From Nannocystis exedens (GTDB lineage Bacteria > Myxococcota_A > Polyangia > Polyangiales > Polyangiaceae), in assembly GCA_945865595.1 (NCBI GenBank), contig CAMBEV010000003.1, positions 1 to 39,538 of the forward strand: a stretch of 39,538 nucleotides of DNA. The letters are read 5' to 3'. Positions 2,936 to 31,475 of the stretch are shown piece after piece; position 1 is the stretch's first letter; each line of letters begins with the position of its first letter. The notes under the pieces are model-generated. The model searched no databases. It was not told the DNA's origin and was given only the letters and a program-made list of their open reading frames with translations. A program made the translations under genes and the position numbers.

Positions 2936-6613
<3,678 letters not shown>

Positions 6614-6633
6614 GGCGATTGCCCGGCAGACTA

Positions 6634-6651
6634 GCCGGAAGCCGCTCCGGC
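6634..6651 (-). other. short GC-rich hairpin in the metH leader
   Basis: GCCGGA (6634-6639) and TCCGGC (6646-6651) are exact inverted repeats around a 6-base loop, about 20 bases upstream of the metH ATG and in the gap shared with the divergent small gene. It could modulate metH translation or mean nothing in such GC-rich DNA. It is too small for a cobalamin or SAM/SAH riboswitch. Confidence 0.3.
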
Positions 6652-6718
6652 GCGAAAAGCGATTCTGTCAGAGGCCGATTCGCGTTAGGCTGGTCAGCTT
6701 CATCGAGGAGGCTTTGCG

Positions 6719-6931
6719 ATGACGACGAAGAACGGACCCCCAAGCGAGCGCCCCGCTCCAAAAACTGACGGACGCAAACAGAGCCTCTATTTCCCCGAAG
6801 TGATGCTCGCTGAGATGAAGCTCGAAGCGAAGCGCCTCAACCGATCGCTCTCCTGGGTTGTGCAGCGCGCCTGGCGTACTGCGAAGCGTGACGTGAAGAA
6901 GATTCCCGGCGTGAACGACATCGAAGGGTGA
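6719..6931 (+). CDS. small ribbon-helix-helix-like protein, TIGR04563-type (Myxococcota)
   Basis: 70 residues. A disordered, Pro/Lys-rich head is followed by KQSLYFPEVMLAEMKLEA and RSLSWVVQRAWRTAKRDV. This is a beta-strand plus two-helix arrangement like the ribbon-helix-helix DNA-binding fold, with the wording typical of a small protein family I associate with Myxococcota (recalled as TIGR04563). A strong GAGGAG at 6705-6710, eight bases before ATG 6719, supports the start. It is transcribed away from metH and ends 6 bases before the stop of the convergent VWA lipoprotein gene. A regulatory DNA-binding role is inferred from the fold only; no target is visible. Confidence 0.75.
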   Translation: MTTKNGPPSERPAPKTDGRKQSLYFPEVMLAEMKLEAKRLNRSLSWVVQRAWRTAKRDVKKIPGVNDIEG

Positions 6932-6937
6932 GCGGCG

Positions 6938-7918
6938 TCACCGCGGTGGCGTGAAGTTCTTGCAGGCGGCGTCGAATGTTTGGAGCGCTTTGTTGAGAGC
7001 GCCCGACAGGTCGCCGTCGCAGATCGAGCTAAACACTGCCGTCTTGCCTACCTGGCTGACGAATTTCTTCAGGCGGGTGGCTTCCGCGGCATCGCCAAAT
7101 GAGGAGGTGCAGTCGGTCTGCCCAGCGATGACCGCTGTTGCCCAGCGATCGTGCCCTTGTTTGAGATCGTCAAAAAACTTGACGTAACTGGCCGTATCCT
7201 CGGCGATATCAGTGCATGACTGTGTGGCGCCCATCTTGAGGCTGGTCGAGCCGACCGAACAGTCTTCTTCGTCGGTGAGATAGACGATGCCAAGGAGGGC
7301 GTCGTCGCGAACGAAGCCCTTGTTGCTGTCTTTGAGGCGATCGCCCAAAGCAAGGCGACCCGCCTGTAACGGCATTTCCCAGCTGGGACCATTCGTGCCC
7401 ACGTTCGCGATGCTTGAGAAGGTACTTGTGAGGCTCGGATCGCTTCGTTCAAGCCACGCGCGCGACATGCTCTTGTTCGTGCGGAACCTTCCGTTGTCGC
7501 CTTTTTGGGACAGCCCGGGAACCGTGAAGCCGAAGATGTCTTGTGTGGTGGCGAGATCGACACCGGTTGTGGTCACTGCGATGCGGTAGTCGATCGGATC
7601 GCCGCCCTTCGTCGTGAACTTGTTCAGGACATCGATGAATTTTGGAAAATTCGCAGCGAGGTTCGCTTGCTCTTGGTCCATGGAGCCCGAGTCATCGACG
7701 ACGAAGACGAGGTCCATCTTCTTGCAAGCGGAGTCGTCTTCGGGGCGGTCGTTCGAGCCCAGGACTGCAGCGTCAACTTTGTTGACTGCGCCCCCGTCGC
7801 TTCCGGGCTCAGGTTGCGTAGCGTTGTCCGAAAATCGCGTATCGGCCGTTGTCCCACAGGCGATTCCTACCGACGACGTGAGCAAGAGAAACGTGAGGGC
7901 TTTCGTTGGAGTGCGCAT
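6938..7918 (-). CDS. VWA-domain lipoprotein
   Basis: 326 residues. The signal peptide MRTPTKALTFLLLTSSVGIAC gives a predicted lipidated Cys21. After an Asp/Gly-rich spacer, a von Willebrand factor A domain starts near residue 68 with the metal-ion site DxSxS as DDSGSMD (Asp75, Ser77, Ser79), a later Thr region and the acidic LTDEEDCS segment. VWA domains bind ligands or partner proteins through a divalent cation. Myxobacteria encode many such lipoproteins, some related to gliding or surface functions, but nothing here fixes the role. Several cysteine pairs suggest disulfides and an extracytoplasmic location. The gene is monocistronic or the first in its own unit; the next gene on the same strand lies upstream of it, 118 bases beyond its start. 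Confidence 0.85.
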   Translation of the reverse strand: MRTPTKALTFLLLTSSVGIACGTTADTRFSDNATQPEPGSDGGAVNKVDAAVLGSNDRPEDDSACKKMDLVFVVDDSGSMDQEQANLAANFPKFIDVLNKFTTKGGDPIDYRIAVTTTGVDLATTQDIFGFTVPGLSQKGDNGRFRTNKSMSRAWLERSDPSLTSTFSSIANVGTNGPSWEMPLQAGRLALGDRLKDSNKGFVRDDALLGIVYLTDEEDCSVGSTSLKMGATQSCTDIAEDTASYVKFFDDLKQGHDRWATAVIAGQTDCTSSFGDAAEATRLKKFVSQVGKTAVFSSICDGDLSGALNKALQTFDAACKNFTPPR

Positions 7919-19505: not shown

Positions 19506-20732
19506 GCACTCGCTCGCTCTTGTGGCCGAACACGCTGCCTGCGAATCGCGGAGCGCTACGGACAAAGTCAAGTAACTGGACGATATGCCTTCGCTAGCCG
19601 CTGAGGAAATGTCTAGCCTTGCGGGCAGTGCCACGCCGGTCGGGAGGTCCACAAAATGGCCCGGTGAAAGCCCGAGAGTCTCGGCGATCGCATCTTGGCT
19701 TGCGGCTTCAAGATCGCCCGCCGTCCACTCCGCGATCGCGCGGTCGCCGATCGTGAGTGCACCTCTTACGTCGCTGAGCGGTGCTGTCCCATCGTTGAAC
19801 CAGACGAACATCAGCTTTGGCGTCGCGCCGGTGGCGCAATCCTTCCACTCAGCACCGTCGCGGTAGAGCTGGCCAGGGAAGGCGGCCTGTTCGCCACCCG
19901 GCTCGGACGCGTAGCAGTTGCTGTGCTTCTCTCCGCTCTTCAGTCGGATGCGCGGACTCGCAAGGATGTGCGCGCTGGTTCCCTCGGCTGGATAGAAATG
20001 CCGCATGAACGCGACGTCGTAGGCGCTGAGCACCGACAGATTGCCTTGCATCGTCGAGATAAGATCGCGGTCGGCCTCGGGCCAGTCCGTGGTGTGGCCC
20101 ATCCCGAAGCCGTGGCCAAGCTCGTGGGCGACGCCGCTGACCCGCGGGTAGTCCTTCGATGTAGGGTCTGAAAAGTGATCGTAGCAGTTACGATTGATTG
20201 ACACGACGAAGTTGCTGACTTTGCCGGTGCCGCGGGACCAGCCGCCCTTGTCGCCGCCGCGATATCGACAGGTGTTCATGACCCAGCTGGTGCAGGTTGC
20301 GTCGGTCTTGTCGGGGTGGCACGGGAAGCCCGCGTACGCTTGGTCGAGCGTATCGACGTACTCAATGTGGCTGACTGTTGGTGGCGTACTGAACAACTCG
20401 GCGACGCTTCGGTGGGGTTCGTCGGTGACGGTGACGCGTGCGTCGCTCGCCACAACGGTGTTGTAGAGGCCAACGGCGCCTTCAATCTCGAGGCGCGCGG
20501 CTGAGCCTGCGGGGAAGTGATCGCTGCAGACCGCAAGCGCCAGCTGACCTGACGCGAGCGACGACGCCGTGTGTTTGCTCCACCGCAGCTGAGACGTTGT
20601 GCGCTGGTTGTCGACGCCCAGTTGGAACGAGAGGGGCGCGGCGACGGTGCTTGCATCGGGAGGGGGTTCGGCAGCGATGGACCCGCACGCGGCCTGGGTG
20701 AGCGCGATGACCCCGAGGCTCAGACGCGTCAT
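19494..20732 (-). CDS. metzincin-type zinc metalloprotease lipoprotein
   Basis: 412 residues. The N-terminus MTRLSLGVIALTQAACG is a lipoprotein signal peptide (Cys16). The zinc site HELGHGFGMGH spans residues 203-213 and fits HExxHxxGxxH, with Glu204 as general base. A downstream STMQG supplies a candidate Met-turn and is followed by a SAYDVAFMRHFYP segment as in matrixin-like proteases. Cysteines before the zinc site (CHPDKTDATC, NTCRYRGG) suggest disulfides, which fits an extracytoplasmic enzyme. About 150 residues after the catalytic part form a separate, unassigned beta-rich region. Its ATG overlaps the peroxiredoxin stop (ATGA, 20729-20732), so the protease gene is translationally coupled behind an antioxidant gene. 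Confidence 0.88.
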   Translation of the reverse strand: MTRLSLGVIALTQAACGSIAAEPPPDASTVAAPLSFQLGVDNQRTTSQLRWSKHTASSLASGQLALAVCSDHFPAGSAARLEIEGAVGLYNTVVASDARVTVTDEPHRSVAELFSTPPTVSHIEYVDTLDQAYAGFPCHPDKTDATCTSWVMNTCRYRGGDKGGWSRGTGKVSNFVVSINRNCYDHFSDPTSKDYPRVSGVAHELGHGFGMGHTTDWPEADRDLISTMQGNLSVLSAYDVAFMRHFYPAEGTSAHILASPRIRLKSGEKHSNCYASEPGGEQAAFPGQLYRDGAEWKDCATGATPKLMFVWFNDGTAPLSDVRGALTIGDRAIAEWTAGDLEAASQDAIAETLGLSPGHFVDLPTGVALPARLDISSAASEGISSSYLTLSVALRDSQAACSATRASECSGP

Positions 20733-21268
20733 CGCGGCAGCACCGCGAAGACTTCTTGTGCGTGGATGCCAGGGTCGACGTCGGGGAACACCTTGAGGAC
20801 CTTTCCGTCGTGGCCGATGACGAACGTGACGCGCGCGGTCAGCCCAGCGAAGCGTTTGACACCGTATGCGTTCGCGATCGATCCGCTTTCGTCGGAAGCA
20901 AGTGGAAAGGGGAGCTTGTGGTCGGCGCGAAAGTTTTCGTGCGAGGCCTCGGAGTCCGACGACACGCCGATCAGCGTGGCGCCCCTCCGCTCGTACTCAT
21001 TGAAGTTGTCACGAAAAGCGCATGCTTCCTTCGTGCAGCCAGGTGTTCCGTCCTTCGGATAGAAGAAAACGACCGCCGCTTTGCCATGCAAGCTCGCGAG
21101 TGTGAAGCGTCTGCCCGAAGCATCACGCGCCGCAAAATCAGGAGCTGCTGTGCCGATCGTCAAGAGTCCTGACCCTCCGTCGGGGCGCCTAGGGGCTGCC
21201 ACGAGCGCGTAGCAGCCAAGAGCTGCGAGGCCGACGAGAGCGACAACAAGAATGTGCTTGCGCGACAT
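20729..21268 (-). CDS. exported or membrane-anchored peroxiredoxin (BCP/PrxQ type)
   Basis: 179 residues. An N-terminal hydrophobic segment (about 5-26) makes it a membrane-anchored or exported protein; a Cys at 19 makes lipidation conceivable, but the lipobox is imperfect. The thioredoxin-fold peroxiredoxin domain carries TPGCTKEACAFRD, with peroxidatic Cys78 and a second Cys83 five residues on. This is the arrangement of bacterioferritin-comigratory protein (PrxQ), which reduces hydroperoxides using an intramolecular disulfide. The conserved FYPKDGTPG and GVSSDS segments agree. Most BCP proteins are cytosolic, so the anchor is unusual. It is the first gene of a two-gene unit with the metalloprotease and is divergent from the GtrA gene across 165 bases. 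Confidence 0.9.
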   Translation of the reverse strand: MSRKHILVVALVGLAALGCYALVAAPRRPDGGSGLLTIGTAAPDFAARDASGRRFTLASLHGKAAVVFFYPKDGTPGCTKEACAFRDNFNEYERRGATLIGVSSDSEASHENFRADHKLPFPLASDESGSIANAYGVKRFAGLTARVTFVIGHDGKVLKVFPDVDPGIHAQEVFAVLPR

Positions 21269-21433: not shown

Positions 21434-21841
21434 ATGCCGCTTCGACCGGACCGCCTTCTGCTTCGCCTTTTTCGCAGCCTGGGAGTGGGGGGCCTCGCGA
21501 CCCTCACCGACCTCATGGCCCTTACGCTTCTTGTGAGCGGAGTCGGTGTCCCATCTCGCGCCGCGAGCATTCCGGCTCTTGTGCTCGGTGCGGTCGTTCA
21601 ATTCGTGGGCAACAAGCGCTTCGCGTTTCGCGATCGGTCGCCCGACTGGGCGAGGCAAGGCCTTCAGTTCGCGGGCGTGGAGATGCTCGGCTTCGCGGCG
21701 AACGCGCTCCTCTTCGACCTGCTCGTGACGCGTACGCCGATGCCGTATGTGGTCGCGCGCTGCCTCGGTAGCTTCTTCGTCTACGTGGCGATTTGCATGC
21801 CGCTATGGACACGCATCTTCAAACACGTCGAGGAAGCATGA
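21434..21841 (+). CDS. GtrA-family membrane protein
   Basis: 135 residues with four predicted membrane helices (about 10-33, 41-62, 73-96, 103-124). The second loop has QFVGNKRFAF, matching the GtrA pattern NF..NR.(W/F).F. GtrA-like proteins are thought to flip polyprenyl-linked sugars or support a partner glycosyltransferase in the inner membrane. ATG 21434 is selected because it begins just before the first helix; the long frame upstream has no such features. The stop overlaps the next ATG as ATGA (21838-21841), linking it tightly to a glycosyltransferase. In the usual GtrA/GtrB pair the partner is a GT2 enzyme making undecaprenyl-phosphate-sugar; here it is a GT21-like enzyme. Confidence 0.85.
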   Translation: MPLRPDRLLLRLFRSLGVGGLATLTDLMALTLLVSGVGVPSRAASIPALVLGAVVQFVGNKRFAFRDRSPDWARQGLQFAGVEMLGFAANALLFDLLVTRTPMPYVVARCLGSFFVYVAICMPLWTRIFKHVEEA

Positions 21842-22977
21842 TGCTCAACTTATTGTGCCTCATCGTGATCGCACTATGCCTGTCGTGGACCACGTTCGGA
21901 CTTCTCGCAATAGGCGCACACAGCAAGAAGCCCGTCGCCATCCTCAAGCACGAGCACCCCGGCGTAACGATTCTCAAGCCGCTGTGCGGGACCGACCCTG
22001 GCCTGGTGAGCAACCTCGAGTCGTTCTTCAATCAGGACTACGCGCGGTACGAAATCGTGTTCGGCATCGAAGGCTCCCAACCTGCGCTTGTCGCGCTCGT
22101 CGAAGCGCTGCGACTTCGTTATCCCGCGGTGAGTACCAAGGTCGTCATTCACCAAGGCGGCTCAGGGCTCAACCCGAAGGTGCGCAACATTCGGCACATG
22201 GTGGAGCACGCCGCATACGACCTTCTGTTGATCAGCGACAGCAACATCAGTGCCCCGCCAGAGTATGTGCAAGATGCAATGGACACGTTTCTTGACGATC
22301 CCGAACACACCGGCGTCGTGACCAACCTGTTCGTCGGATACGGCGAGAGCACGCTCGGCTCAGCGCTCGAGAACGTGCAGCTCAATGGCTTTTGCGTAGC
22401 AGGGGCGGCGCTTCCCACGCTTCTTGGCGATGCGTGCGTTGTGGGCAAGTCGATGCTCTTTTCGCGCCGAACCCTCGAAAAGGTCGGTGGCTTCGAGAAG
22501 GTGTCAGACGTGCTCGCCGAAGACTTCGTGATGGGCAAGATGTTCCAGCACGCTGGGTACAAAGTGCGCCTCGCGAACGTGGTGCTGCGCAACATGACGC
22601 AGAATCTCTCGGTGCAAGCGTTCTTCGATCGTCACGTGCGCTGGGCGATGTTGCGCTTGCGCTTGCGGCCCGCCGCCTACCTGCTCGAGCCGTTCACGAG
22701 TCCATTGTTCACGTTGCCGTTTGCGTGGCACTTGATGGGGCGAGACGCGCTCTTCTTGGTGATGGCGCTTTGGCAGCTGCGCGACGTCGCCCAGTGGCTC
22801 ATTCTGCGTGGGCCGCACGCGAGTGTTCTGCCGATGGTGCTCGCACCGGTGCGCGATGCGCTGTCACTTTTGGCGTGGGCGGTCGCGCCTTTCAAGAAGC
22901 ACGTTGTGTGGCGCGGAACGCGTGTTCGGCTGGGCGCGGGCACGCTGCTGTTTCATGAGGCTACCCTCGCACCTTGA
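21838..22977 (+). CDS. GT21-like glycosyltransferase (ceramide glucosyltransferase / HpnI type)
   Basis: 379 residues with an N-terminal membrane helix (about 3-25) and at least two C-terminal ones. The cytoplasmic catalytic domain shows the GT21 arrangement: VTILKPLCGTDPGL at the start, LNPKVRNI, the DxD-like SDSNIS (Asp134), LAEDFVMG (Asp229), and RHVRW (265-269), the (Q/R)xxRW motif of processive-type and ceramide glucosyltransferases. Relatives glucosylate ceramide, or add N-acetylglucosamine to bacteriohopanetetrol (HpnI). The acceptor cannot be fixed from sequence. Since myxobacteria make sphingolipids, glycosylceramide formation is an attractive inference. The coupling to GtrA suggests that the lipid-linked product, or its donor, needs transbilayer movement. 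Two ATGs (21838, 21841) are adjacent; the first overlaps the GtrA stop. Confidence 0.85.
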   Translation: MMLNLLCLIVIALCLSWTTFGLLAIGAHSKKPVAILKHEHPGVTILKPLCGTDPGLVSNLESFFNQDYARYEIVFGIEGSQPALVALVEALRLRYPAVSTKVVIHQGGSGLNPKVRNIRHMVEHAAYDLLLISDSNISAPPEYVQDAMDTFLDDPEHTGVVTNLFVGYGESTLGSALENVQLNGFCVAGAALPTLLGDACVVGKSMLFSRRTLEKVGGFEKVSDVLAEDFVMGKMFQHAGYKVRLANVVLRNMTQNLSVQAFFDRHVRWAMLRLRLRPAAYLLEPFTSPLFTLPFAWHLMGRDALFLVMALWQLRDVAQWLILRGPHASVLPMVLAPVRDALSLLAWAVAPFKKHVVWRGTRVRLGAGTLLFHEATLAP

Positions 22978-23057
22978 ACGACCTTTCGCGCGCCTGAGGC
23001 GACTTCCGCTACATGACCGGTCCATCGGCGGCGTCTAATGACGAGGTGGAGGCGGAG

Positions 23058-25067
23058 ATGAAGAAGGTGTCAGGTTCGCGGCGCGCGGTCCGTGCTTTGG
23101 CGTTGTTGATCATGGGTGGCTTTGGCATTTTGCCCGCGCTCGAATCCTCTGAGTCCGTTGCCGCGCCTGGCGCTGCGCGCGCCTCGTCGGAGGGTGAGAA
23201 GCTGATCCAGCGTGTGTGCACTCTTGTCCCCCAATGTGGAAATCAAGAGAGCATGGCAAAGGCGCTATTGGCTCTTCCGTTGCTGAAGGAAGCGAAGGAT
23301 CCGGTGATTCAGAGCGTGCTCGCGAGCAAAGGCAAGTTGCCGATCACCAAGCTCGATGAAGTCGTTCGTCACCTCGGAAAGAAGCTGCGCGACTCGAGCG
23401 CGAAGAACAAACGGTTTTCTCTCGACGTGAACATTGATGCGGCGGGTCGCGAAGTGGCACTTGAGTTGGCCGCGGAACTCAATCCACACGCGGTTGCGAA
23501 AGCCGTCGTGACGGCGAATCTCTGCCGCTCAAAGAGTTGCTCGAAGGAAGCGGACGCGGTGCTTCACACGTGCAGCTTTCTCGCGCAAAAGACCTCGAGC
23601 CGTCCGGTCACCGAGCCGTTGCCAAAACAGATGGCCAACGTGACGCAAAACAGGCGGGGGGCCGGTTCGTACCTTGCGCAGCGCACGGCGTGGATTTGCC
23701 TCGCCGAACTCGAATACCGAACCGCGCTGGGGCTCGAAGGCGCAACTGATCTTGCGTATGCGAGCATCAAGAAGGCCGCCCTCTTGATGGCGCAAGGCGC
23801 AGCGAGGTCAGCGCCGGTCGACAAAATTGGACCCTTGAAGTGCAAGGGATCGTCGGCGAGCACCGCGGCGCTCTTTCAATGCACGCAGCCGCCGGGTGGC
23901 GCGACCCCGCCTTCGACGCCGGGCGGCCCGGCACCGATTGATCCAGTAAACGGTGCCGCGATGTCGGGCGGCGCGATGGGCCCCGGTGGCATCGCACAAG
24001 GCGTAACGAACACTGTGCCGTCGGAGTATCTACCGGGGGCTTGTTACGGCATCGATCCGATGAAGCTCTATGGCGGCGGCATTTCAGACGATGACCCGGG
24101 AAGCGCGGGCGGGACCAGTCCACCGACCGGCACCGGAGGCGGGACGCCGCCTGCGGGTACGGGTACGACCGGAGGTGGGACGCCGCCTGCGGGTACGGGT
24201 ACAACCGGCGGTGGCACGCCGCCTGCGGGTACGGGAGGCGGCGGAACATCCGGAGGGCCCATCACCGGCCCAAATGTGGGTCCGGCCGATACCGGAATCA
24301 AGTTACCGCTCGGGTTGAAAGACATCAACACCGACAAGGGACTCGACTTTGGGAGTTGGAACATCAACGGTGGTGCGTTTGGCCAAGGCGGGAAACTTCC
24401 TGGCGGTGGAGGCAGCCCGATTGGCGACGGTGGCTGGGTTGGTGGCGGTGTGAGCTGGATGCCAACGCCCGATTCGGACACGGCGCCTTCCGCATGCGGC
24501 CAATCGTTTTCCATGGCGATGGCTGCGTGCCTCACGGCGTTCGGGAGCGAACAAAGTAACGTGTCGTGCGGATCCGGCATCCAGTCGAGCACGGGCTCCG
24601 GCGCGAATCCTCTCGCGATGCCTGATCCCGATCACGCCCAGTCCATGCAATGTGGCTGCAAAGCGAAGAATGGCGGAGGATCGCCAGGCGGATCGTCGTC
24701 GACACGCTCGAGTACCGATACGGGTTCGGCAGGCTCCACCAAGAAGAAGGGCGCTCAAAAGTGCTGCCCGGCGCTATGCACGGTCGCGGATGAAGGTGCT
24801 GGCTCAATGTGTTCGCAGTGCGGCGGGGGCACACCTTCTTGCGCAGGGGGCGGAAGTGCGGATCTCTCAAAGCTTGGATTCTGCGGCGCGTTCGGCAACG
24901 ATCCAAGGTTCGTCAAACTGTGCGGCATGATCGATCCCGCGCCGTTTATGGCGATGAAGGCGGCATCAACGATGGGCGCTAAATTCAACAAGCCCACCCA
25001 AGCGAACCAGCAAAAGACAGCGGATCCCTTCACAAAAAAATCGGGCGCGAGTTCAAGCAAGCCGTAA
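23058..25067 (+). CDS. large secreted Cys- and Gly-rich protein with a GTPPAGTGTTGG repeat
   Basis: 669 residues from ATG 23058, which has GGAGG at 23047-23051 and places a signal peptide (basic head, hydrophobic core at about 13-28, likely cleavage after an Ala-rich SVAAP..ARA stretch) at the N-terminus. Residues 45-270 are alpha-helical with paired cysteines (CTLVPQC, CRSKSC). A low-complexity centre (about 285-410) is made of Gly, Thr and Pro, including two perfect 12-residue repeats and a partial third. The C-terminal third is Cys-rich (CGCKAKNGG, CCPALC, CSQCGGG, CAGGG), suggesting many disulfides. No catalytic motif or sorting signal (no LPXTG or MYXO-CTERM) is visible. A structural or surface role is only a guess. 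Confidence 0.8.
   Translation: MKKVSGSRRAVRALALLIMGGFGILPALESSESVAAPGAARASSEGEKLIQRVCTLVPQCGNQESMAKALLALPLLKEAKDPVIQSVLASKGKLPITKLDEVVRHLGKKLRDSSAKNKRFSLDVNIDAAGREVALELAAELNPHAVAKAVVTANLCRSKSCSKEADAVLHTCSFLAQKTSSRPVTEPLPKQMANVTQNRRGAGSYLAQRTAWICLAELEYRTALGLEGATDLAYASIKKAALLMAQGAARSAPVDKIGPLKCKGSSASTAALFQCTQPPGGATPPSTPGGPAPIDPVNGAAMSGGAMGPGGIAQGVTNTVPSEYLPGACYGIDPMKLYGGGISDDDPGSAGGTSPPTGTGGGTPPAGTGTTGGGTPPAGTGTTGGGTPPAGTGGGGTSGGPITGPNVGPADTGIKLPLGLKDINTDKGLDFGSWNINGGAFGQGGKLPGGGGSPIGDGGWVGGGVSWMPTPDSDTAPSACGQSFSMAMAACLTAFGSEQSNVSCGSGIQSSTGSGANPLAMPDPDHAQSMQCGCKAKNGGGSPGGSSSTRSSTDTGSAGSTKKKGAQKCCPALCTVADEGAGSMCSQCGGGTPSCAGGGSADLSKLGFCGAFGNDPRFVKLCGMIDPAPFMAMKAASTMGAKFNKPTQANQQKTADPFTKKSGASSSKP
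24141..24235 (+). repeat. 36-base in-frame tandem repeat in the secreted protein gene
   Basis: Two full units (24141-24176 and 24177-24212) and a partial third (24213-24235) encode Gly-Thr-Pro-Pro-Ala-Gly-Thr-Gly-Thr-Thr-Gly-Gly. The units differ at only a few silent bases, so the expansion is recent. Unit number could vary between strains through slippage without changing the reading frame. Confidence 0.85.
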
Positions 25068-28130: not shown

Positions 28131-31100
28131 GTGACGAGCCTCACGAAGCCAAAACACCACGTTCGAATTGTCACTGCCGCGTCGCTATTTGACGGGCACG
28201 ACGCGGCGATCAACATCATGCGCCGCATCCTTCAGGCCTCGGGCGCTGAGGTGATCCACCTGGGGCACAATCGGTCCGCTGCCGAGATCGTCGAGTGCGC
28301 CATTCAAGAAGACGCGCAGGCCATCGCAGTCACGAGCTACCAGGGTGGCCACGTCGAGTTCTTCAAGTACATGTTCGACCTCTTGAAGGCGCGAGGTGCA
28401 AAGACGCGCATCTTCGGCGGTGGTGGCGGCACGATTCTGCCTTCCGAAATCACCGAGCTGCACGACTACGGCATCGCCCGCATCTACTCGCCCGACGACG
28501 GTCGCGCGATGGGTCTCGAGGGCATGATCGCCGACGTGATCACCAAGTCCGATTTTGAGATGCGTGACGCGCGGTTAGACAAGTACATTGACGACGCGAA
28601 AAAGTGCGATCCGCAAGCCATCGCGGCGCTCATCACGATCGTTGAGACGCATCCCGAAGCCGCCGAAAGCTTGCGAGCCGCGCTGAACCCGCTCCAAAAA
28701 AAGGTACCGGTCCTCGGCATCACAGGCACTGGGGGGGCAGGGAAGAGCTCCCTCGTCGACGAACTCGTACGCCGCTTTGTTACGGACTTCGCCGACAAGA
28801 CGCTCGCGGTTATCTCGGTCGATCCATCGAAACGTAAATCAGGCGGCGCATTGCTTGGCGACCGCATTCGCATGAACGCGATCTTCAACCCGCGCGTCTA
28901 CATGCGATCGATGGCGACGCGCGAGGCCAACCTCTCGGTGAGTAAGCACGTGCGCGAAGCGATCGCGATCTGCAAAGCCGCCGGCTTCGATCTGATCATC
29001 GTCGAGACGTCGGGCATCGGCCAGTCCGACACTGAAGTGACCGACCTCGCGGACGCATCGCTCTACGTGATGACCAGCGAATACGGCGCTGCCACCCAGC
29101 TCGAGAAAATCGACATGATCGATTTCGCCGACGTGATCGCCATCAACAAGTTCGACAAAGCAGGTTCGCTCGACGCACTTCGCGATGTAAGAAAGCAATA
29201 CAAGCGCAGCAGAACTCTCTTCGCGGCCGATGACGACTCACTGCCCATCGTCGGAACGATCGCGTCGCAGTTTGGTGATCCCGGCACAAGCCGGCTCTAT
29301 CGGCTTCTCATCGAGACGCTCGAGAAGAAAACGGGAGTCGCCTTTCATTCGTCACTCGAAGTGCCCAGTATCGAAAGTGCGAAACTCGCGATCGTGCCTC
29401 CGCAGCGCGTGCGCTACCTCGCCGAGATCGCCGAAGACAGCGATCGCTACCACGCGTGGGTGAAGGAGCAGGCGCAGATCGCGCGGCAGCTCTATCAACT
29501 CAAGGGCGCAATCGCGCTCGTGAAGGGAAGTGGAGCCGAGCTGCGCGAGCGCTACTTGCATATCGAGTCAACGCTTGCGCGTGAGTGCAAGACGCTGCTC
29601 GACGAATGGCCGGCGACCAAAGCGCGGTACGGCGCGAAAATGGTCCAGTTTCAGGTACGAGGTAAGGTCATCGAGCAAGAGCTCACCAGCGAATCACTAT
29701 CGCGCCTTTCGATCCCAAAGGTGTCGCTGCCTCGGTTCGAAGATTGGGGTGACATTCTCACGTGGCAGCTCACCGAAAATGTACCGGGCGAGTTTCCTTT
29801 TGCGGCCGGTGTCTTTCCGCTCAAGCGCGAAGGCGAAGATCCGGCGCGCATGTTTGCAGGCGAGGGCGGGCCCGAACGGACGAACAAGCGCTTTCACTAT
29901 GTGTCGCGTGGGCTTCCAGCCAAACGCCTGTCGACCGCATTCGACTCGGTTACGCTTTATGGAGAGAACCCCGATCATCGGCCAGACATTTACGGCAAGG
30001 TCGGAAATAGCGGCGTCAGCGTTGCGAGTGTCGACGACGCTAAGAAACTCTACAGTGGTTTCGATCTTGCCTCGCCCACCACTAGCGTGTCGATGACGAT
30101 CAACGGGCCCGCGCCCATGTTGCTCGGCTTCTTCTTCAACGCGGCGATCGATCAACAGTGCGAGCGGCACATCCGTGCAGAAGGGCTTGTCGGACAGGTC
30201 GAAAAGAAAATTGACCAAATATACGCCGAGAAGGGTGAGTCACGCCCCGCCTACAACGGTGCGATCCCTGAAGGCAACGACGGCCTCGGCCTCGTGCTCC
30301 TTGGCGTGAGCGGCGACGAAGTGTTGCCGCGTGATGTCTATGAGAAGATTCGCGCAGCCACGCTTGCGCAGGTGCGGGGCACCGTGCAGGCCGATATTTT
30401 GAAAGAAGACCAGGCGCAAAATACGTGCATCTTCTCGACCGAATTCGCGCTCCGCATGATGGGCGACATTCAGCAGTTTTTCATCGACGAAAAAGTTCGC
30501 AACTTCTACTCGGTCTCGATCAGCGGCTACCACATCGCCGAAGCCGGTGCGAACCCGATTAGTCAACTTGCTTTCACGTTGGCCAACGGCTTCACGTTCG
30601 TCGAGTACTACCTCTCGCGCGGCATGAACGTTGACGACTTCGCGCCGAACTTTTCGTTCTTCTTCTCGAACGGTCTCGACCCCGAATACACGGTAATCGG
30701 CAGGGTTGCGCGCCGCATTTGGGCAAAAGCGATCAAGTACAAGTACAAAGGGAACGATCGGTCGCAGAAGCTCAAGTACCACATTCAAACCAGCGGCCGG
30801 AGCCTGCACGCGCAAGAGATCGCGTTCAACGACATCCGCACGACGCTTCAGGCCCTTTGCGCCATTCAGGACAATTGTAACTCGCTCCACACCAATGCTT
30901 ACGACGAAGCCGTCACCACGCCGACCGAGGAGAGCGTCAGGCGCGCGCTCGCGATTCAGCTCGTGATCAACCGCGAGCTGGGGCTCTCGAAGAACGAGAA
31001 TCCGTTGCAGGGTGCATTCATCATCGACGAGCTCACCGAGCTTGTCGAGCAAGCGGTGTACACCGAGTTCCGCCGCATCAGCGACCGCGGTGGGGTGCTC

Positions 31101-31475
31101 GGTGCAATGGAGCGCATGTACCAGCGCACGAAAATTCAGGAAGAGTCGCTCTACTACGAGACGAAGAAGCACGACGGCTCGTTGCCGCTCATTGGCGTGA
31201 ACACCTTCCTCGATCCGAAAGGATCACCCACGGTGATTCCACCCGAGGTCATTCGCTCGACGCGCGAAGAGAAGGAGTATGCGATCGCTTCGCGCGATGC
31301 GTTTCAGCGTCGCAATGCACAGCCTGCTGGTGTCGCACTCGCTCACCTCAAACGCACAGCGGTCGAGCAGGGTAACCTTTTCGGGTCGCTGATGGAGGCG
31401 TGCAAGGTGTGCACGTTGGGCCAGATTTCGAGCGCGCTCTACGAAGTGGGCGGGCAGTACCGACGCAACATGTAG
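28131..31475 (+). CDS. icmF: fused isobutyryl-CoA mutase IcmF (B12-dependent mutase with its G-protein chaperone)
   Basis: 1114 residues in the IcmF order. The N-terminal cobalamin-binding domain has [13 protein letters not shown] (His23 as lower cobalt ligand), [11 protein letters not shown] and [13 protein letters not shown] MeaB-like P-loop GTPase follows, with GTGGAGKS (199-206), [14 protein letters not shown] and NKFDKAGS. The C-terminal TIM-barrel mutase domain has [37 protein letters not shown] and [20 protein letters not shown]. It interconverts isobutyryl-CoA and n-butyryl-CoA, and in some species isovaleryl- and pivalyl-CoA, using adenosylcobalamin; the fused GTPase loads and protects the cofactor. 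It fits branched-chain acyl metabolism, a known trait of myxobacteria. GTG 28131 is the start that gives the standard N-terminus. The gene appears monocistronic. Confidence 0.96.

Follow-up and report, generated by a model that had tools for sequence, protein, structure and literature searches.

A translationally coupled gtrA–GT21 gene pair conserved within a Myxococcota clade: a candidate module for making and moving a membrane glycolipid

As far as the accessible parts of the literature go, proteins of the GtrA family are tied to polyprenyl-phosphate sugars only and are proposed to act as flippases of C55-P-sugars, flipping itself being without direct evidence (PMC7389260, PMC11127046). The way in which bacterial sphingolipids pass from inner to outer membrane is likewise not known, according to the accessible text of a study of Caulobacter, where the sphingolipid gene cluster has lptG/lptF neighbours (PMC11324152); CC_1166 is described in part of the literature as a potential flippase within the Caulobacter sphingolipid cluster. 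In E. coli BL21(DE3) (NC_012971, locus L179), too, we found the sphingolipid genes adjoining annotated lptG and lptF. Our literature search, with subscription journals mostly outside its reach, returned no paper joining GT21 with HpnI, or GtrA with ceramide/glycosyltransferase/flippase.

The gene pair described here lies on contig C3 of a 3.54 Mb assembly of 423 contigs (90.48% complete; genome G000 below), within a window of 39,538 nucleotides, the window being the whole stretch of DNA that was analysed. Its features are as follows.

20729-21268, minus strand: redoxin gene, divergent, upstream of gtrA
21434..21841, plus strand: gtrA (GtrA/DPMS-TM family, PF04138), 135 amino acids, ATG at 21434, stop TGA at 21839-21841; hydrophobic segments by hydropathy at residues about 12-61, 76-100 and 102-132
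21838..21841, plus strand: ATGA stop/start overlap of gtrA and the GT21 gene
21838..22977, plus strand: GT21 lipid glycosyltransferase gene (PF13506), 379 amino acids, ATG at 21838 (or 21841), stop at 22975-22977
22069..22083, plus strand: EGSQP, residues E78-P82, site of the D1 aspartate (human GCS D92), aspartate lost
22234..22248, plus strand: SDSNI, D2 motif, residues 133-137, D in 88/88 rows
22513..22527, plus strand: LAEDF, D3 motif, residues 226-230, D in 88/88 rows
22630..22644, plus strand: RHVRW, (Q/R)xxRW motif, residues 265-269, last R and W in 88/88 rows
23013-25067, plus strand: ORF downstream of the GT21 gene, without a Pfam match

An ATGA-overlapping gtrA/GT21 pair with SDSNI, LAEDF and RHVRW motifs had been described in the initial annotation, and coordinates, Pfam matches and motifs all agree with this. 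The gtrA product matches PF04138 (GtrA_DPMS_TM) with E 4.1e-20 and 72.6 bits against a gathering score of 26.1, and the glycosyltransferase matches PF13506 (Glyco_transf_21) with E 9.9e-43 and 146 bits against 21.7. The genome search found a single GT21 and a single GtrA in the whole genome, and the MAGs nzgw256 and nzgw257 ('Myxococcales bacterium') are its nearest named relatives. Purifying selection acts on both genes, dN/dS against two congeners being 0.02-0.12 for the glycosyltransferase (YN00 estimates obtained in two of three pairs) and 0.06-0.14 for gtrA. The flanking redoxin gene and the ORF at 23013-25067 look unrelated to the pair. Elsewhere in the window, a single plus-strand ORF at 28131-31475 combines B12-binding, MeaB and methylmalonyl-CoA mutase domains, the set expected of a fused IcmF-type mutase.

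A scan of a genome collection with a GT21 alignment gave 207 confirmed loci, of which the best 80 were used together with the window (81 loci) and searched for GtrA with a purpose-built profile. GtrA adjoins GT21 in 23 of the 81, lying directly upstream in 22, the window included, and directly downstream in one (L105). In a tree of 88 GT21 sequences (the window, the 80 loci, six plasmid loci and human ceramide glucosyltransferase, GCS), all 23 GtrA-paired rows fall within one 43-row Myxococcota clade (ultrafast bootstrap 97, with the bootstrap not settled, and SH-aLRT 99); outside it, none of the 38 genome loci has an adjacent GtrA. Mapped onto this tree, the adjacency label changes eight times, against 20.5 times when labels are shuffled. 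The coupling claimed in the initial annotation is a conserved property: of the 22 loci in which gtrA comes first, 17 have its stop codon overlapping the GT21 start, in 14 of them by exactly four bases at the nearest start, and the remaining loci have gaps of 2, 11, 27, 67 and 113 bases. The ATGA overlap is present again in L105, where the gene order is swapped, and in G042, whose GT21 (34% identity) is not on the tree, a GtrA frame has its likely ATG inside the end of the glycosyltransferase gene. GtrA and GT21 distances correlate (r 0.84, a value reached in none of 5000 permutations), a correlation that common descent by itself would likewise produce. Comparison of the neighbourhoods found no other protein family accompanying the pair throughout the clade, and we found no plasmid-borne relatives of the window GtrA. 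The adjacency is not due to chance and marks a genuine conserved module, and we hold with high confidence that gtrA and the GT21 gene are functionally coupled.

The partnership is not universal within the clade. No adjacent GtrA is seen in 20 of the 43 rows, among them L058 and L070, whose upstream sequence of fewer than 210 bases is too short to show a GtrA there. Fifteen genomes with a clade GT21 were chosen by hand on identity (this choice excludes G054, whose partial match lies at the end of a contig), and nine of them carry the coupled pair: G000-G003, G016, G024, G027, G028 (twice) and G047. No GtrA other than the coupled one is present in G000-G003, G027 and G047; the genus of the window keeps GtrA with GT21 alone, and we therefore read GtrA as serving GT21, not a general polyprenyl pathway. 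In G063 and G066 a GtrA is present but elsewhere in the genome, and in G009, G036, G049 and G051 none was found anywhere, so that GtrA is dispensable for some clade members. All named members of the clade derive from MAGs. Two rows deserve separate mention. The pair in L049, from a MAG labelled Anaerolineales (Chloroflexota), is near-identical to that of Polyangiaceae L037, and its contig is probably misbinned. In L016/L079 (G027, contig C66) the GtrA-adjacent glycosyltransferase gene has an in-frame TAG, the remainder of the frame still matching.

What kind of enzyme is the GT21 protein? The 21-row alignment A1 shows no variation at D134, D229, R268 and W269, and the corresponding residues in human GCS numbering (D144, D236, R275 and W276) are retained in 88/88 rows of the larger set. 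The position of GCS D92 is occupied by D in 84 of the 88 rows; this D is missing from the window, L033 and L034, and L079 has a gap at the position. We take D92 to be the D1 of the D1,D2,D3,(Q/R)xxRW pattern and to matter for the nucleotide. The GCS-type set is thus incomplete in the window enzyme, with D2, D3 and RxxRW present and D1 absent; given the purifying selection on both genes, the loss may point to an altered donor instead of an inactive enzyme. An AlphaFold2 model built from 38 sequences (pLDDT 92.6) has an N-terminal helix (residues 2-28), a GT-A domain and a bundle of C-terminal helices (residues 278-352). Its closest solved folds are hyaluronan synthase (Z 25.2, rmsd 3.8 over 340 residues) and cellulose synthase, and the enzyme is accordingly predicted to have the membrane GT-A fold of these two. 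Human GCS (26q* entries) is absent among the fold matches listed, which has no bearing on the fold; in the sequence comparison, ceramide glucosyltransferase 26qf matches the window enzyme over residues 39-368 (E 5.1e-37, 130.9 bits). The window enzyme is very likely a lipid glycosyltransferase. The earlier label 'ceramide-glucosyltransferase-like' holds at the level of GT21 and goes too far below it: in the tree, the 43-row clade stands apart both from the HpnI rows and from the branch that carries human GCS and the rhizobial and rhodobacterial GT21s, and the accessible part of the literature has characterised GT21 enzymes using diacylglycerol (DAG) as well (PMC3972451).

We propose that gtrA and the GT21 gene encode a two-gene, translationally coupled inner-membrane module. 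At the cytoplasmic surface, GT21 would use a nucleotide donor to attach a single sugar to the hydroxyl group of a membrane lipid, with (dihydro)ceramide as the most likely acceptor and DAG as the second choice, and GtrA would carry the glycolipid into the periplasmic leaflet, with an onward route to the outer membrane possible. In this scheme we infer which lipid accepts and which sugar is donated, as well as the direction and the flipping role of GtrA. That ceramide is the acceptor we regard as an even call, and movement of the GT21 product by GtrA seems to us just as evenly balanced; the proposal as a whole, from coupled module through glycosylated ceramide to transport by GtrA, is tentative and falls somewhat short of probable.

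Ceramide supply was assessed across the genome, the gtrA/GT21 pair itself adjoining no ceramide gene. Two contigs of G000 carry the relevant genes.

Contig C250 (L167), 2642-1557, minus strand: homologue of bCerS (aca/cerS), 38% to E. coli BL21 YghO, 1.4e-78
Contig C250 (L167), 1500-580, minus strand: CerR homologue, epimerase-like, next on the same strand, 5.3e-38
Contig C116 (L127), 3231-4478, minus strand: AOS-B, an alpha-oxoamine synthase
Contig C116 (L127), 4472-5596 and 5596-6882, both minus strand: two KAS genes
Contig C116 (L127), 6984-7226 and 7245-7502, both plus strand: two ACP genes (PF00550), divergent from the KAS genes

YghO and epimerase genes are named as dihydroceramide genes in the accessible part of one source (PMC9386255). 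A bCerS homologue is found in eight of the nine genomes carrying the coupled pair and in 75 of 79 genomes of the order, in which ceramide synthesis is probably general; being near-universal, its presence cannot favour ceramide over DAG as the acceptor. The one pair-carrying genome without it is G001 (labelled as the same genus, 86% complete), where no full AOS match was found either.

AOS-B is the sole alpha-oxoamine synthase of the window genome. It scores 331 bits with the BioF model and 323 with a serine palmitoyltransferase (SPT) model, both below cut-off, and lies under every curated SPT cut-off. On the AOS tree it branches apart from BioF and Kbl; its sister group comprises the SPTs of E. 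coli BL21 and Sphingobacterium together with the SPT-like AOS-A of relatives (16-row node, 100/99, with several long branches). Among the 79 genomes, AOS-B (at least 63% identity) occurs in 41, AOS-A (at least 69%) in 30 and both together in none, counts that are uncorrected for kinship, come from genome lists compiled by hand and include, for AOS-A, a split gene and a partial one. Such a pattern is what two enzymes able to replace each other at a single step would produce, and AOS-B is a candidate second class of SPT in this Myxococcota order. An identity of AOS-B with BioF or Kbl was ruled out: it co-occurs with a BioF-like protein or Kbl in G002, G028, G049, G051, G063 and G066 and is separate from them on trees. 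As for a dedicated aasR adjoining AOS-B, a tblastn of E. coli BL21 aasR against 27 loci gave no match.

The view that the genome has no SPT, and hence no ceramide, was dropped once the bCerS–CerR pair and the AOS-B cluster had been found. The initial annotation had named SPT and hpn genes as those to look for and had suggested that the pair could make and translocate a glycosphingolipid. Ceramide genes are indeed present, as homologues of bCerS and CerR and an SPT-like AOS-B below SPT cut-offs, and the hopene cyclase is absent from the window genome; the glycosphingolipid branch of the suggestion gains strength, with ceramide as acceptor and flipping by GtrA staying at the strength given above. 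In its most specific form, a synthase–flippase module in which GT21 makes a glycosylceramide that GtrA flips, with the base supplied by AOS-B acting as an unusual SPT together with the two KAS and two ACPs of its cluster, we consider the reading doubtful.

The most serious alternative is that GT21 glycosylates DAG in the manner of rhizobial Pgt, with GtrA moving the glycosyl-DAG or acting as a helper subunit. In the accessible parts of the relevant papers, Pgts are classed in GT21 (PMC8231724) and Agrobacterium Pgt prefers DAG over ceramide (PMC3972451); moreover, DAG should always be present, and G001, with its lack of ceramide markers, poses no problem here. Yet the rhizobial GT21 L117, which may or may not be Pgt, branches elsewhere, with GCS, and the ceramide genes of nearly all genomes make ceramide at least equally available. 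We judge a DAG-directed module rather unlikely.

Alternatively, GT21 might make a polyprenyl-phosphate sugar that GtrA flips for use by a distant GT-C enzyme, in the style of the Gtr/GtcA three-component systems. This is the role described for GtrA family proteins in the accessible text of the sources (PMC7389260, PMC11127046), and GtrA is related to the membrane-spanning domain found in a dolichol-phosphate mannose synthase (DPMS). Against it, a Pfam scan of 26 window proteins found neither a GtrB-type GT2 nor a GT-C gene, no third gene accompanies the pair, and the known acceptors of GT21 enzymes are lipid hydroxyls. A polyprenyl-phosphate product is quite unlikely.

A purely architectural role for GtrA has the tight translational coupling, which suits a complex, in its favour, and a profile of 22 GtrA proteins matches the transmembrane domain fused to DPMS in 5mlz (E 6.1e-4), so that a structural role is possible. 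On this view GtrA would sit in the membrane as a subunit and either anchor GT21 or offer it its acceptor, a task that the fused GtrA-like domain of archaeal DPMS may also perform. The modelled GT21 has an N-terminal helix and a C-terminal helical bundle of its own, though, and the four clade-GT21 genomes without GtrA also speak against an obligate partner of this kind, which we hold to be distinctly unlikely.

That GT21 of the window genus has altered or lost its original activity is a reading prompted by the missing D1 aspartate, which 84 of 88 rows retain and only the window, L033 and L034 have lost (one further row having a gap). It is very improbable in the face of a dN/dS of 0.02-0.12 among these three sequences, the retention of all the remaining motif residues and a confident AlphaFold2 model.

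The hopanoid branch of the initial annotation, in which GT21 would be HpnI and add a sugar to bacteriohopanetetrol, is scarcely credible: among NCBIfam models, HpnI (TIGR03472) fits the window enzyme best, over its full length, and matches all 38 rows of alignment A3, but the score of 258.5 bits is under the curated cut-off of 310, annotated HpnI genes have hpnJ as a neighbour where the window GT21 does not, and the three HpnI rows (one of them, L115, carrying no annotation) fall outside the 43-row clade (97/99). No match to squalene-hopene cyclase (PF13249) was found in seven pair-carrying genomes, G000-G003, G016, G028 and G047 (the window genome being 90.5% complete), and this refutes a hopanoid as a necessary acceptor; G024 has a subthreshold match and G027 a clear one.

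If the preferred reading, in which GT21 glycosylates ceramide and GtrA moves the product, is true, GtrA/GT21 would be a candidate for the step that is missing at the inner membrane in the export of bacterial glycosphingolipids. The conserved, coupled pair opens both the choice of lipid acceptor and the flipping of glycolipids to direct test on one pair of genes, and provides a testable candidate for the making and moving of bacterial sugar-ceramides in uncultured relatives of myxobacteria.

Elsewhere in the GT21 tree, a group mainly from Nitrospirota (L074, L078, L080-L082, L085, L086, L089, L091-L093, L095, L096, L098, L100, L103, L108, L109 and others) includes 23 loci in which a nearby gene begins in PHP-like fashion and 16 with a GH1-like gene, names that we assign from the appearance of the sequences.

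How, then, does the pair compare with known systems? With GCS (GT21, 26qf) the window enzyme shares a GT-A enzyme with D2, D3 and RxxRW motifs, but it belongs to another GT21 branch and lacks the D1 aspartate; we know of no GtrA partner of GCS. HpnI resembles it in a full-length profile match and differs in the sub-cut-off score, the separate branch and the want of hpnJ and cyclase. Pgt has a lipid acceptor and the same family in common with it, as far as the accessible part of the source goes (PMC8231724), whereas the rhizobial GT21 L117, which may or may not be Pgt, lies on the other branch and no GtrA partner is described in that part. Caulobacter Sgt1/Sgt2 are a parallel for bacterial ceramide glycosylation, although in the accessible text they were chosen from GT4 candidates, not GT21 (PMC6445935). 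The three-component Gtr systems (GtrA–GtrB–Gtr*, GtcA type) likewise couple a partner of the GtrA family to a glycosyltransferase; here, however, that enzyme is a GT21 and not a GtrB-like GT2, and there is no neighbouring GT-C gene. In DPMS (5mlz) a GtrA-like domain also works with a glycosyltransferase, but it is fused to it and the acceptor is a polyprenyl phosphate, in contrast to the two genes and GT21 enzyme of the window. The conserved module of GtrA and a lipid glycosyltransferase is thus a variation on kinds of system that are already known.
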